A stretch of 10,576 nt of DNA from Deltaproteobacteria bacterium (lineage in GTDB: Bacteria > Desulfobacterota > Syntrophia > Syntrophales > UBA2210): assembly GCA_019314085.1 (NCBI GenBank), contig JAFCZZ010000036.1:1-10576 (forward strand). Reading direction: 5' to 3'. The translations under genes and the position numbers were made by a program. Under the pieces are notes generated by a model. That model was not told the DNA's origin, made no database searches, and was given only the letters and a program-made list of their open reading frames with translations. Shown here one piece after another: positions 1 through 6,293 of the stretch (the first letter of the stretch is position 1; every line of letters begins with the position of its first letter).

Positions 1-720
1 AATTTCAGGTCATTCGCCGAGTATTTTAAATTTGTTACAGCAAAAGAGGGGGCGGATGAACTGATCGTAATGATCGATTCCCTTTCCACGAACCTTACCA
101 GTTTTTTCCGGGAGGAGGCCCATTTCCATAGGTTCCGCCAGATTGTCCCCGAAATCATAGAATCATCTTCCCGCTACAGCCGCGTCCCCAGGCTCAGGGT
201 ATGGTGTGCCGGGTGTTCAACGGGCGAGGAGCCGTATTCCCTGGCTATGACCTTAGGGGAAACGTTAAACGGCCACAATGTCGATACACAGATACTGGCG
301 ACGGATATCTCTACGAAAGTGCTTAAAACCGCTACGGCCGGTATTTATGCGAATGGGCGCGTCAAGGGTATTCCCGGATCTTTGCTCCGGAAATATTTTC
401 AAATCGGCCAGGGGAAATGGGAGGGACATTATCGGGTGAAGGAGAACCTGAGAGGTATTATAAAATTTACGAGATTCAATCTTATGGAAGTGCCTGATTT
501 TAAAGATCCCCTTGACACCATATTTTGCAGAAACGTTATGATCTATTTTGATAAAGAAACTCAGAAGAGGCTGATTGATAGATTTTATGACTGTCTGAAA
601 GAGGGTGGCTGGTTGTTTATCGGGCATTCCGAAAGTCTGACGGGTATAACGCACCGGTTTAAATATATCGAGCCGAGTGTCTATCGTAAAGAACTTGCAG
701 AGGAAAGGCCGAACCCTTGA
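1..720 (+). CDS. cheR: Chemotaxis receptor methyltransferase CheR (5' end outside window)
   Basis: CheR transfers methyl groups from S-adenosylmethionine to glutamates on chemoreceptor cytoplasmic domains, the adaptation step opposed by CheB. The frame is open from base 1, and the residues before the first in-window ATG at 70 (FRSFAEYFKF...) continue the CheR N-terminal helical domain. The real start is therefore upstream and the gene is 5'-partial, lacking perhaps 30-40 residues. Visible family signatures are the TNLTSFFRE stretch, the SAM-binding loop WCAGCSTGEEPYS (about 202-240), ATDIS (about 300-314) and FCRNVMIYF (about 523-549). The C-terminus ends normally at TGA 718-720. The stop is followed within 20 bp by the cheD start, consistent with co-transcription. 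CheR identity is secure; which receptors it serves cannot be seen. Confidence 0.96.
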   Translation, partial: NFRSFAEYFKFVTAKEGADELIVMIDSLSTNLTSFFREEAHFHRFRQIVPEIIESSSRYSRVPRLRVWCAGCSTGEEPYSLAMTLGETLNGHNVDTQILATDISTKVLKTATAGIYANGRVKGIPGSLLRKYFQIGQGKWEGHYRVKENLRGIIKFTRFNLMEVPDFKDPLDTIFCRNVMIYFDKETQKRLIDRFYDCLKEGGWLFIGHSESLTGITHRFKYIEPSVYRKELAEERPNP

Positions 721-739
721 TACTTTTCAGGTTGTGTCT

Positions 740-1540
740 ATGAACAAGATTATAGTCGGAATTTCAGATCTGAAGGTGACTGAAAACATTGAGGATACGC
801 TGATCACCTATGCCCTCGGTTCATGTATTGCTGTCACCGTTTATGATCCCGTGGTAACGGTGGGGGGGCTTTTGCACTTCATGCTTCCCGATTCATCGCT
901 TGATTTACATAAGGCGCGGAATAATCCGGCGATGTTCGCGGATACGGGGATACCCCTTCTGTTTAAATCTTGTTACAAGCTGGGGGCTCAAAAGAAACGA
1001 ATGGTAGTAAAGATTGCCGGCGGGGCTCGCATCCTGGACAATGGGAACCACTTCCAGATCGGCAAGAAAAACCTGACTGCCTTAAGGAAAATTTTTTGGA
1101 GGAATAATGTCCTGATAGACGGCGAAGACACGGGGAGTAATAACTCGATGCGTGCCGTCATAAAGAAGGTTATCTCGATTTCAGGTTTCAAGATGGATAA
1201 ATGTATCGAGGCGAGCAACGGGGTGGAAGCGCTGGAGGCGCTGACAGACAATTGGGTGGATGTAATAATATCAGATATAAATATGCCGGAAATGAATGGT
1301 TTTGAATTATTTGAGAGGTTGAAGGACGATAACCTCCTTAAAGGTATTCCCGTCATAGCCATAACCACGGAAAGCAGCGATGAGCGCATGCAGGATGCCT
1401 TCAACCTAGGGGTGAAGGGTTTTATAAAAAAGCCTTTCCAGCCTGAGGAAATCAGGGGAATTCTTTATAAAGTCATAGGGGTGAGTAATGAAGGAGAATA
1501 TGGAGAAGATAATCGAGATGACGAGTCTTTCGATTTCTGA
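740..1540 (+). CDS. cheD: CheD deamidase fused in frame to a CheY-like receiver (both halves truncated at the join)
   Basis: The first 136 residues are CheD, which deamidates receptor glutamines. They carry the family catalytic residues Thr23, Cys29 (ALGSC) and His46 (LLHFMLPDS), plus FADTGIP and VKIAGGA. CheD proteins normally continue about 20 residues past the EDxGG-like motif. Here, after GEDTGSNNS, the chain runs straight into MRAVIKKVISISGF, a receiver domain from helix 1 onward, with phosphoacceptor Asp179 (SDINMPEMNG), the TTES switch region and the KKPF lysine. The receiver lacks its own beta1 strand and Asp-Asp pair. The start at ATG 740 fits the CheD family N-terminus (MNKIIVGISDLKV); an in-frame GTG at 677 would overlap cheR and add non-family residues. 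The 3' end overlaps the next gene by 41-53 bp. CheD activity may survive, but receiver phosphorylation is doubtful without the acidic pair. Domain identities are sure; function of the chimera is inference. Confidence 0.9.
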   Translation: MNKIIVGISDLKVTENIEDTLITYALGSCIAVTVYDPVVTVGGLLHFMLPDSSLDLHKARNNPAMFADTGIPLLFKSCYKLGAQKKRMVVKIAGGARILDNGNHFQIGKKNLTALRKIFWRNNVLIDGEDTGSNNSMRAVIKKVISISGFKMDKCIEASNGVEALEALTDNWVDVIISDINMPEMNGFELFERLKDDNLLKGIPVIAITTESSDERMQDAFNLGVKGFIKKPFQPEEIRGILYKVIGVSNEGEYGEDNRDDESFDF

Positions 1541-1934
1541 GGTCTTTGAGAAGATGTTTTATATATTTCTCGAACCCTCGGATGATGAAAATGATGGGTA
1601 TGATATGGAGGCTGTCATAGGGTTTGAAGGCCCCGTGAGAGGGGAGATCAGGATGTTGATCTCCAGAAATATAGTAAAAAAGATGGTTCTCAACATGCTG
1701 AATCTGAAAGAAGACGAAGTGACCCGGCATAACATTGAGGATTGCTCAAAAGAGGCGGTTAATATGGTTGCCGGCAATCTCTTCGGCAAACTTGACGGTT
1801 CGGAGAAGTTCCATCTGTCAATTCCTACATTTAAAGCGGAATGTTCCGGCCTGTCTTCGGGGAAAGATACTTGCAGAATGGATTTCGACTCGGATAGCGG
1901 GAATGTGGGAGTGGCGGTGACCCTGTCAGAGTAA
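1500..1934 (+). CDS. CheX/CheC-family chemotaxis phosphatase-like protein (copy 1)
   Basis: A protein of about 144 residues (148 if the ATG at 1488 is used) with the CheX/CheC/FliY fold signature. One phosphatase motif D-x3-E-x2-N-x3-G is present as Asp81, Glu85, Asn88 in DCSKEAVNMVAG. In CheC and CheX the Glu and Asn of this motif drive dephosphorylation of CheY-P. A single motif in a short chain resembles CheX more than the two-motif CheC. AAGGAG at 1491-1496 lies only 3 nt from ATG 1500, while ATG 1488 has a GGGGTGA-like sequence before it, so the start is uncertain. Either start lies inside the end of the CheD-REC gene, suggesting translational coupling and a receiver-phosphatase partnership. 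There is no signal peptide or membrane segment; the protein should be cytosolic. Confidence 0.85.
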   Translation: MEKIIEMTSLSISEVFEKMFYIFLEPSDDENDGYDMEAVIGFEGPVRGEIRMLISRNIVKKMVLNMLNLKEDEVTRHNIEDCSKEAVNMVAGNLFGKLDGSEKFHLSIPTFKAECSGLSSGKDTCRMDFDSDSGNVGVAVTLSE

Positions 1935-1939
1935 TACGT

Positions 1940-1974
1940 CTGAAGCACGTTCAGCATGAAGTACGCGTAGTACT
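1940..1974. repeat. Two tandem short dyads downstream of cheX copy 1
   Basis: CTGAA-GCACG-TTCAG at 1940-1954 and AGTAC-GCGTA-GTACT at 1960-1974 are each perfect 5-bp inverted repeats with a 5-nt spacer. Their centres are 20 bp apart, about two helical turns. They could be small hairpins in the polycistronic RNA or paired protein sites. Neither is followed by a T-run, so they are not intrinsic terminators. Five-bp dyads arise easily by chance; the repeated geometry is the only reason to note them. Confidence 0.3.
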
Positions 1975-2014
1975 GGCGGGCAACAGAGAGAGGTCTGAAT
2001 AACTATCATTATCT

Positions 2015-3198
<1,184 letters not shown>

Positions 3199-3200
3199 TT

Positions 3201-5402
3201 ATGAAATATGAAAAACTGTCGAATCTAATAGATGGAGTTGCTTCCGATTTCCTTTTTCTCGATGAAAAAGGGATCGATATCCCCTCCGCGGGAAAGTTTC
3301 TGAACCAGATCGAAGTGATCATAAATGAGGCCACGGCTCAAGAAACCGGACAACTGAGGCGGATAGCATGTGGAATAAACGCTCTGCTCGAGAAAATTAT
3401 ACTGAATGGTATCGACCAGGAAGAGGGGTGCCGTGCCTTTGAAAGAGGCATCACCACCATGCAGGACATTATTAACAGTTTTAAGAATACAGGCGACTAT
3501 AAAGGGGATATAGAAGACTTTATGGGACACATTGCCGGGCTGACGGGGACTGCGATGGAACAGGAAGAAGTCCCCGGCGATGCGAGTGTGACCAGGAAAG
3601 AATCTCCTGAAGAAGCCGTCCAGGCGGAAGAGAAATTTGAGATTTCGGATGAATCGCTATTGAGGGATTTCATCACCGAAGGTCTTGAATACATGGGTGA
3701 AATCGAGGTAAATGTTTTGAACCTTGAGCAAAGCCCTGAAGATAAAGAGTATCTTAATGCTGTATTTAGGCCGTTTCATTCGATCAAAGGTGTGGCGAGC
3801 TTTCTTAATCTGAATGATATCAGTGGTCTAGCCCATGATTTGGAGAACCTTCTTGATCGGGCAAGAAGTGATGACCTGCCGGTGACTTCCACACTTATCG
3901 ATATTATCCTCAATGGATCAGACTTCTTGAAGGAAATGATAGGCAGTCTGAAGGGAGTCCTGGATGGTGAAAGGAGCCGGCCTTCAAAACCGGATGTTTC
4001 CGCCTTGAAAGATCAAATAAAAAATATCGATCAACAGGTCGATCCCGGGGGCACAGTCGAAAGACTGGGGACCATCCTGGTCGGCGACGGGGTTATAACA
4101 GGGGAGGCGCTTGAAGACACCCTTAAAACTGCTCAGGGGCCACCGCTGAAAAAGCTGGGAGAGACCCTGATCGATGAGGGTAAGGCGACTTCGAAACAGG
4201 TGTCACAGGCTCTGAGAAAGCAGGCGAATCAAGTTGTCGATGCGAGCACGATCAGGGTGGATGTACAGAAATTGGGTGATATAGTTGACATGGTTGGAGA
4301 GCTGGTTATCACTCAGGCTATGATCAGACAGAGCCCGGTCATTCAAACGAGCAAGGACAACAAGCTGATCGAAGACATGACGCAGTTGGCCACTATTAGT
4401 TCGGAGCTTCAAAAAATATCAACCGCCTTGAGGATGGTGCCGATTAAACAGACGTTTCAGAGAATGTCCCGTCTGATAAGGGATCTTTCTAAGAGTACGG
4501 GGAAGAAGATTGTCGCTGAGATGGCAGGTGAGGATACGGAAATCGACAGAAACATGACAGAGGAGATCTACAGTCCTCTTGTCCATATGGTAAGAAATTC
4601 TGTTGATCATGGAATAGAAACCCCCGAAGAACGAATCAGTCTCGGGAAACCTGAAGAGGGCGTGGTTAAACTTAGCGCCTTCCATAAAGGCGGCAAGGTT
4701 GTTATCGAGATATCCGATGACGGCAGAGGGCTGGATAAAGAAAAAATACTGAAAAAGGCTGTGGATAAGGGACTTGTAAAAAGCTCAGAAGACCTGCCGG
4801 AGCGCGAAATATATAGACTCTTATTCCTTCCGGGGTTTTCAACTGCCGAGAAGATAACAGATATTTCAGGCCGGGGAGTTGGTATGGATGTTGTAAAACA
4901 GGCCGTGGAAAAGCTGCGGGGGAAGATAGAAATTGATAGTGTGCTCGGTAAGGGCTCCACGTTTATCATCAAACTCCCCCTTACCATGGCCATTATCAAC
5001 GGGATGATTGTGCGTGTAGGTAAGGAAAAGTATATTATTCCTATTGTTGCGATCAGGCAGCTGTTGCGTCCTCTGCGAGAATCTTACAACAAGATAGCCG
5101 GCAGGGGGGAAACGATAAACGTAATGGGCACTCCCATTCCGCTGGTGAGATTGTATGATCTTTTGAGTATAGAACATGAGCATGAACACCCCTGGGAGGC
5201 TGTAACGGTGGTGATTGAAGGTGAGAATGGGGCAAAGTGTATCTTGGTGGATGAGATCATTGGTGAAGAGGAAGTGGTGATCAAGAGTCTTGGCGAAGGG
5301 CTGCAAAGTGTCCGAGGAGTTTCCGGCGGCGCTATTATGGGGGATGGCAGTGTAGGATTGATACTGGATCCCGAAGGCTTGTTCGAATTGAGTGAGATGT
5401 GA
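3201..5402 (+). CDS. cheA: Chemotaxis histidine kinase CheA with extra N-terminal domain and linker repeats
   Basis: CheA autophosphorylates in response to receptors and passes phosphate to CheY and CheB. The order in this 733-residue protein is unusual. Residues 1-115 are a helical, histidine-poor domain with no HxxKG motif. The true HPt domain is about 155-265 with His193 in FHSIKG. Two copies of an LGxxLvxxG repeat follow at about 289-311 and 319-342. Then come the dimerisation segment (about 345-415, VDMVGELVITQ), the ATPase domain with N-box HMVRNSVDHGIE (about 462-473), DDGRGLD (about 506) and GRGVGMDVV (about 557-565), and a CheW-like regulatory domain from about 598 to the end. No P2 CheY-binding domain is recognisable. 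It is cytosolic. Start ATG 3201 lies 2 nt after the cheB stop with only a weak Shine-Dalgarno sequence, pointing to coupling with cheB. Confidence 0.96.
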   Translation: MKYEKLSNLIDGVASDFLFLDEKGIDIPSAGKFLNQIEVIINEATAQETGQLRRIACGINALLEKIILNGIDQEEGCRAFERGITTMQDIINSFKNTGDYKGDIEDFMGHIAGLTGTAMEQEEVPGDASVTRKESPEEAVQAEEKFEISDESLLRDFITEGLEYMGEIEVNVLNLEQSPEDKEYLNAVFRPFHSIKGVASFLNLNDISGLAHDLENLLDRARSDDLPVTSTLIDIILNGSDFLKEMIGSLKGVLDGERSRPSKPDVSALKDQIKNIDQQVDPGGTVERLGTILVGDGVITGEALEDTLKTAQGPPLKKLGETLIDEGKATSKQVSQALRKQANQVVDASTIRVDVQKLGDIVDMVGELVITQAMIRQSPVIQTSKDNKLIEDMTQLATISSELQKISTALRMVPIKQTFQRMSRLIRDLSKSTGKKIVAEMAGEDTEIDRNMTEEIYSPLVHMVRNSVDHGIETPEERISLGKPEEGVVKLSAFHKGGKVVIEISDDGRGLDKEKILKKAVDKGLVKSSEDLPEREIYRLLFLPGFSTAEKITDISGRGVGMDVVKQAVEKLRGKIEIDSVLGKGSTFIIKLPLTMAIINGMIVRVGKEKYIIPIVAIRQLLRPLRESYNKIAGRGETINVMGTPIPLVRLYDLLSIEHEHEHPWEAVTVVIEGENGAKCILVDEIIGEEEVVIKSLGEGLQSVRGVSGGAIMGDGSVGLILDPEGLFELSEM

Positions 5403-5422: not shown

Positions 5423-5429
5423 TATGGTC

Positions 5430-5816
5430 ATGAGTGTTGATAAGAATATGAGGATACTGGTGGTTGATGATTTTGCCACAATGAGGAAGGTCATCAAAAA
5501 TCTCTTAAAACAGGGCGGGTATAATAATATCGTTGAGGCCGAAGATGGTGCAGAGGCCCTCAAGGTCCTGAAATCGGTGAAGGTAGAGTTTGTCATCTCT
5601 GACTGGAATATGCCGAATATGAACGGGCTTGAATTTCTGAAGGCAGTCAGGGCAGATGCCGAACTCTCCGGTTTGTCGTTTCTGATGGTGACGGCGGAGG
5701 CCCTCCAAGAGAACGTTGTGCTGGCAGTGAAGGCCGGTGTGAGTGACTATATCGTAAAACCGTTTACCGCTGAGGTTCTGAATGAAAAGATCGAGAAGAT
5801 CTTACAGAAGTCCTAG
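5430..5816 (+). CDS. cheY: Single-domain chemotaxis response regulator CheY
   Basis: A 128-residue stand-alone receiver, the classic CheY size. It has the acidic pair Asp13-Asp14 (VVDDFATMRKVI), phosphoacceptor Asp58 (SDWNMPNMNG), the conserved switch Thr in MVTAEA and the Lys in VKPF. The DDF-x-TMR and DWNMP wording is close to flagellar-type CheY of enterics. CheA-phosphorylated CheY diffuses to its target, which cannot be identified here. Unlike the receiver in the CheD fusion, this one keeps every catalytic residue and is the more likely functional output regulator. Its TAG stop at 5814-5816 overlaps the Shine-Dalgarno of the following CheX-like gene, a sign of coupled regulator and phosphatase expression. 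Confidence 0.95.
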   Translation: MSVDKNMRILVVDDFATMRKVIKNLLKQGGYNNIVEAEDGAEALKVLKSVKVEFVISDWNMPNMNGLEFLKAVRADAELSGLSFLMVTAEALQENVVLAVKAGVSDYIVKPFTAEVLNEKIEKILQKS

Positions 5817-5825
5817 GAGGAAACC

Positions 5826-6293
5826 ATGGATGTCAGATTTATAAATCCCTTTTTGACGGGGACGATCAATGTGTTGAAGACGATGGCCTCTGTCGAACCG
5901 AAGCCGGGCAAGCCATACCTCAAGAAAAACAGCCTGGCCACTGGCGATGTTTCAGGGATAATAGGCCTTACCGGGTCGGTAGTCGGTTCAATGGCCCTGA
6001 GCTTCTCCGAGGGGGCTATACTGAAGATCGTATCGAATATGCTGGGGGAAGAGATGACGGAGGTCAACGGTGATATCACGGATGCCGTGGGCGAGATCAC
6101 CAACATGGTTTCAGGCGCATCCAGAAAGGAACTGGAGGGGATCGGCTTCACTATCACGGCAGCAATTCCTTCGGTCATTTCGGGCAAAAACCACTCGATC
6201 AAACATGTCTTGGGGGGGCCTAGTCTCATTATTCCCTTTGAGACGGAGGATGGGCCCTTTACGGTGGATGTGTGTATAAGCGATCCGAAATAG
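5826..6293 (+). CDS. cheX: CheX-family chemotaxis phosphatase (copy 2)
   Basis: A 155-residue protein of the CheX type. It begins MDVRFINPFLTGTINVLKTM, contains the GxxxGSMALSFSE strand, and has one phosphatase motif D-x3-E-x2-N-x3-G as Asp86, Glu90, Asn93 (DAVGEITNMVSG). CheX removes phosphate from CheY-P. AGGAGG at 5815-5820, overlapping the cheY stop, lies 5 nt before the ATG, so expression should track cheY. It is distinctly different from the copy at 1500-1934, so the two are old paralogues, not a recent duplication. No signal peptide or transmembrane segment is present. The cognate substrate is most simply the adjacent CheY. Confidence 0.92.
   Translation: MDVRFINPFLTGTINVLKTMASVEPKPGKPYLKKNSLATGDVSGIIGLTGSVVGSMALSFSEGAILKIVSNMLGEEMTEVNGDITDAVGEITNMVSGASRKELEGIGFTITAAIPSVISGKNHSIKHVLGGPSLIIPFETEDGPFTVDVCISDPK

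Follow-up and report, generated by a model that had tools for sequence, protein, structure and literature searches.

The window, by which we mean the whole 10,576-nucleotide stretch of DNA analysed here, contains a series of che genes on its plus strand, in which a single open reading frame (ORF) occupies the place of cheD and cheY. It also contains genes for a PAS-HisKA hybrid kinase and, on the opposite strand, a sigma-54 regulator. The features discussed below are the following.

1 to 720, plus strand: cheR, cut by the start of the window.
740 to 1141, plus strand: CheD part of the fused ORF, residues 1-134; catalytic Thr23, Cys29 and His46 present, tail absent.
1141 to 1142, plus strand: the join, with 123 bp fewer than in the related loci L001 and L105.
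1142 to 1540, plus strand: receiver part of the fused ORF, helix 1 onward, residues 135-266 and the stop codon; Asp179, Thr209 and Lys231 present, beta1 and the acidic pair absent.
1488 to 1934, plus strand: CheX-family gene, overlapping the end of the fused ORF.
2161 to 3198, plus strand: cheB.
3201 to 5402, plus strand: cheA.
5424 to 5816, plus strand: second CheY-type receiver, complete (profile positions 1-110 of 111).
5826 to 6293, plus strand: second CheX-family gene.

Translation of positions 740-1540 of the plus strand gave one open frame of 266 residues, CheD followed by a receiver, which reads MNKIIVGISD...NVLIDGEDTGSN up to the join and NSMRAVIKKVISISGF...DDESFDF after it; the position of the join (1141/1142) was set by comparison with relatives. 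Both Pfam domains were matched in this frame, as expected for the in-frame CheD-CheY chimera that had been proposed in an earlier note on this DNA. The CheD domain (PF03975) was incomplete, residues 48-136 of the fused ORF covering profile positions 1-92 of 108 as compared with 1-107 in the intact protein P0004. The same note had described the loss of the usual C-terminal strand of CheD; the tail is indeed missing, but about 26 residues are lost and their pattern looks like strand-turn-strand, which is more than one strand. The Response_reg domain (PF00072) was matched by residues 135-240 at profile positions 8-108 of 111, as compared with 1-108 in the intact CheY P0122, and we agree that the receiver begins at helix 1, without beta1 and its acidic pair. 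Comparison with P0122 showed that the phosphoacceptor Asp179, Thr209 and Lys231 are present in the receiver half; we presume that these residues have the roles of their counterparts in E. coli CheY. In the CheD half, Thr23, Cys29 and His46 of P0004 are the same in the window and align with CheD of T. maritima, whose catalytic triad is Cys27/His44/Thr21 according to a figure legend of PMC7022378. The frame is kept across the join and the overlap with the CheX-family gene at 1488-1934 is preserved, as the earlier note had stated, with an overlap of the same kind in L001, L004 and L105. A GGGGAG motif (window 1132-1150) lies ten bases 5' of an in-frame ATG at 1148, and could provide a putative internal ribosome site from which a receiver of 130 residues, lacking beta1, would be translated.

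We then compared the fused ORF with its protein relatives. In the whole-ORF search, 7999 candidates sharing the most words were scored and the best 120 of 7779 with E <= 0.001 were retained; relatives with few shared words could be missed, while any protein carrying this join would be expected to rank first. The join was absent from all proteins among the matches listed, so that the other proteins with the same junction for which the earlier note had proposed to search did not appear, and the nearest CheD sequences among these matches were the separate proteins P0004 (93% identity) and P0005 (92%), the latter of which has the upstream extension too. A search with the receiver half (best 120 of 375) was led by P0122 to P0125, which are 143 aa long, 88-90% identical (90% for P0122) and all contain NVLIVDDS. 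Complete CheD (P0004) and complete CheY (P0122) are thus found apart in relatives, and since the longest contig is 3026 bp for both, they probably lie on one common contig. A search centred on the join (residues 100-200) gave 32 matches from 73 candidates, none covering more than 66% of the region, and the two best were CheY proteins whose N-terminus is longer and whose VDDS is complete. Two of the best 120 of 375 CheY relatives, P0147 and P0191, are 130 aa long and start at the internal Met of NSMR; they look as if they were without beta1, which may reflect start-site calling or similar deletions.

The same comparison was made on the DNA of related loci and genomes. The best 80 of 540 relatives were kept in the scan of genome contigs, and the set of loci comprised 78 with a CheD match at E <= 1e-15, of which 35 had a receiver gene at most 400 bases downstream (27 distinct loci, the other eight being repeat fetches of the same places). 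None of the 35 loci (27 without repeats) showed a read-through from CheD into the receiver, a stop in the CheD frame preceded the receiver in 35/35, and the smallest gap between the matched CheD and receiver parts was 123 bases. In L001 and L105, the end of cheD is followed by 9 bases and then by the start of cheY in the same frame, while L004 has 11 bases between the genes and a cheY three codons shorter. The distance from the cheD start to the cheY stop is 924 bp in L001 and L105 and 801 bp in the window, a difference of 123 bp or 41 codons. These results bear out the proposed loss of DNA between adjacent cheD and cheY genes. Within the family of genome G001, 10 of the 19 genomes matched at E <= 1e-30, and two separate matches were obtained in each of them. 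Within the order that includes this family, 60 of 155 genomes, taken without stated completeness and with at most 16 candidates scored per genome, matched at E <= 1e-40, 52 of them with two matches and eight with one. The CheD matches ended at query residues 135-142, except in G151 where the match continued through a TAA to residue 173, the receiver matches started at residues 111-134, and no match in the 60 matching genomes spanned both halves. The architecture was therefore found in no second genome, be it among the protein matches listed, the 60 of 155 genomes or the 35 loci (0/35). A near-match search of phage records with window positions 1-2300 gave no match, viral contigs contained no exact match to the join, and further scans of viral contigs gave no other piece of the cheD-cheY pair of the window than the contig L101/L112 described below. 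As far as these comparisons reach, the apparent 123-bp loss is private to one contig.

Both halves of the fused ORF appeared normally constrained. In the CheD half, no residue was private and two departed from a column with at least 90% agreement (114 relatives, P0002, P0003, P0008, P0009, P0011 and P0113 being left out), while nine intact controls had 0-2 private residues and 0-4 such departures. The receiver half had 2 private residues and 1 departure, and nine controls had 0-3 and 0-3 (120 relatives). The pN/pS of CheD was 0.19-0.24 between the window and four loci and 0.22-0.26 among intact loci, L006 and L104 being dropped because of a mismatch in their start pattern. That of CheY was 0.13-0.20 between the window and six loci and 0.07-0.21 among intact loci, the window averaging slightly above the latter. 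For cheX, for which two loci were entered, pN/pS was 0.43 and 0.54 in the window pairs and 0.38 between L001 and L004. The dS exceeded 0.6, and often 1, in the window pairs, and therefore only an old relaxation would be visible. An old decayed gene pair was rejected, as private residues, departures at conserved columns and pN/pS were all near those of intact controls; the decay that had been considered for this pair is not visible in its residues. It follows from the constraint on both halves that the loss is recent, or is absent in the organism.

One other contig bears on the join. The IMG/VR contig 3300008470_000647 (L101/L112; 6062 bp) contains 361 bases that match window positions 781-1141 with 13 mismatches (96.4%), and it ends exactly at 1141, immediately before the join, its final 32 bases being identical to the window. 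On the other side it consists of phage DNA, with a helicase-like gene recognized by eye. The 11-base stretch TGAAAACATTG is common to L101 (around L101:5000) and the window, and 10 of its 11 bases are found in L113. The same phage stretch occurs in five other viral contigs, which diverge right after TGAAAACATTG, and L101 is therefore a chimera of phage and bacterium whose last 361 bases are bacterial cheD. Six codons differ in residue between L101 and the window; judged by eye with P0004-P0006 as reference, two of these look derived in the window and four in L101. Among genes of L101 that by eye look phage-like there is a TonB-dependent-receptor-like ORF (L101:2567-4165, with Plug and beta-barrel Pfam domains), which may be either real cargo or another chimera. 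That L101 should end on the join base by accident is unlikely (about 1 in several hundred, a rough estimate made after the fact). Its end suggests a branch of the assembly graph at 1141, as would be given by coexisting joined and intact forms, and strain variation could be an alternative. Such a branch fits coexisting alleles as well as an artefact and does not separate the two.

A recent, real deletion in cells is our preferred reading of the private loss, and we hold it to be evenly poised between right and wrong. In one bacterial lineage, placed in the Desulfobacterota by the names of its relatives, about 123 bp would have been deleted, comprising the cheD end, the short spacer and the opening codons of cheY, and the frame would have happened to survive, giving a single ORF of 266 residues. 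The CheD half would then have its catalytic residues but not its C-terminal part, and in the receiver half beta1 and the metal-binding acidic pair would be missing. Both encoded proteins would probably be disabled, inactive or weak, while the downstream cheX would still be translatable and the complete CheY at 5424-5816 would remain. This reading is favoured by the nearest proteins, which are separate and complete (P0004 and P0005 for CheD, P0122-P0125 for CheY), and by the stop of L101 at 1141, where a branch would be expected if the joined form existed beside the intact one. Against it are the presence of the join in this one contig only, within the searches made, the lack of accumulated damage in the two halves, as would also be seen with an artefact, and the chimeric joins that L101 shows in data from a close relative. 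A cross-species chimera was rejected, both halves having the same nearest relatives.

An artefact, in which a library chimera or a join of contig ends in a strain-mixed metagenome omitted the 123 bp while the organism has two complete genes, is a serious possibility to which we give somewhat less than even weight. L101, from a close relative, stops at 1141 and is fused to phage DNA at the 11-base stretch that it has in common with the window; the restriction of the join to one contig and the undamaged state of both halves also agree with an artefact. Amplification chimeras between nearby parts are reported in PMC4595205, where the overlaps described peak at 6 nt and the distances at 250-300 nt. 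However, long repeats are absent and any overlap at the join is small, the frame is kept (one chance in three) and the nearest relatives are the same on both sides. In L001 and L105, direct repeats in the intact region reach 7 bases at most, and the overlap at the join predicted from the relatives' loci was 0 bases in 13/13 pairs of loci. A collapse of repeats therefore fails to account for the join, and a molecule that carried it probably existed; of the assembly collapse raised in the earlier note, the repeat-driven form is thus disfavoured and an artefact in general stays plausible.

A functional new protein, in which the CheD strand NVLIDGED replaces beta1 and the acidic residues of the receiver to give a deamidase-receiver hybrid, appears very improbable. 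The resemblance of NVLIDGED to the receiver motif NVLIVDDS (alignment A1), the open frame, the conserved residues on both sides including Asp179, Thr209 and Lys231, and the occurrence of CheD-receiver fusions elsewhere would fit such a protein. However, NVLIDGED belongs to the normal CheD sequence of intact relatives and would have to be taken from a CheD fold which is itself without its tail, the route from it to helix 1 is four residues longer, the join occurs in no protein among the matches listed, and VLIVDDS is retained in each of the five fusions that were found (P0008, P0009, P0011, P0113 and one protein of a Bdellovibrio plasmid). It is scarcely credible that a working protein would reuse this strand as receiver beta1 and couple receptor deamidation to phosphorylation in one polypeptide.

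A deletion driven by an 11-base microhomology, AACTCGATGCG (1142-1152), as proposed in the earlier note, has a very low probability. These bases do stand at the join as described, but they occur letter for letter in intact cheY of L001, L104 and L105, and are therefore plain cheY sequence. At the DNA level, the codon that follows the position of Asn134 specifies Y, F, H, C or R in 17 cheD tails, and the codon preceding that of residue 135 is TCN in the cheY heads, as reflected in the absence of predicted overlap. An Asn follows the last shared residue in 4 of 23 aligned CheD proteins (P0006, which is fairly close, P0012, P0014 and P0018) and would permit an overlap of about 3 bases (AAC) if the strain of the window had Asn too, but in the closest CheD relatives, P0004 and P0005, this position is occupied by Tyr.

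If the deletion is real, the locus shows two neighbouring signalling genes shortly after a small in-frame deletion fused them, probably at the cost of both functions; if the join is an artefact, it cautions against accepting fusion ORFs at the border of cheD and cheY without support from reads. Such ORFs could easily arise at this border, since in L001 and L105 the two genes are separated by 9 bases and share one frame. Judged from sequence, neither the deletion nor the artefact would provide evidence of a new working protein. The titles and abstract openings among the literature matches listed contained no report of a CheD-CheY fusion of this kind; in the accessible text of PMC3513319 "CheD-CheY" occurs twice, both times in a binding table, and the fusions in that of PMC2577667 are CheA/Y.

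Comparison with CheD of T. maritima (2F9Z chain C) showed that residues 1-134 of the fused ORF align and keep the catalytic triad, whereas about 26 C-terminal residues are absent. The stand-alone CheY proteins P0122-P0125, from the same operon type, are 88-90% identical to the receiver half from helix 1 to the FDF end, whereas the receiver of the fused ORF is without beta1, the acidic pair and its own start codon at the usual place. Both domains were found in four of the best 120 whole-ORF relatives, P0008, P0009, P0011 and P0113, which like the fused ORF have CheD and then a receiver in one ORF. They are 282-322 aa long as compared with 266 and, unlike the fused ORF, all keep VLIVDDS; P0011 also retains the CheD tail. 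The CheD tails of P0008, P0009 and P0113 appear, by eye, to be out of frame, which suggests frameshifts at the same gene border. P0002 and P0003 are tandem double-CheD proteins of 366 aa. Plasmid records gave 1037 matches, all below 60% identity among the best 15 of 1037. One gene of the Bdellovibrio plasmid pBdHAGR1 (L118:1456-2508) encodes CheD and then a receiver in a protein of 350 aa annotated as hypothetical (BFD69062.1), whose domains, unlike those of the fused ORF, are nearly complete, with CheD at profile positions 2-105 of 108, the receiver at 1-103 of 111 and VLIVDDS kept.
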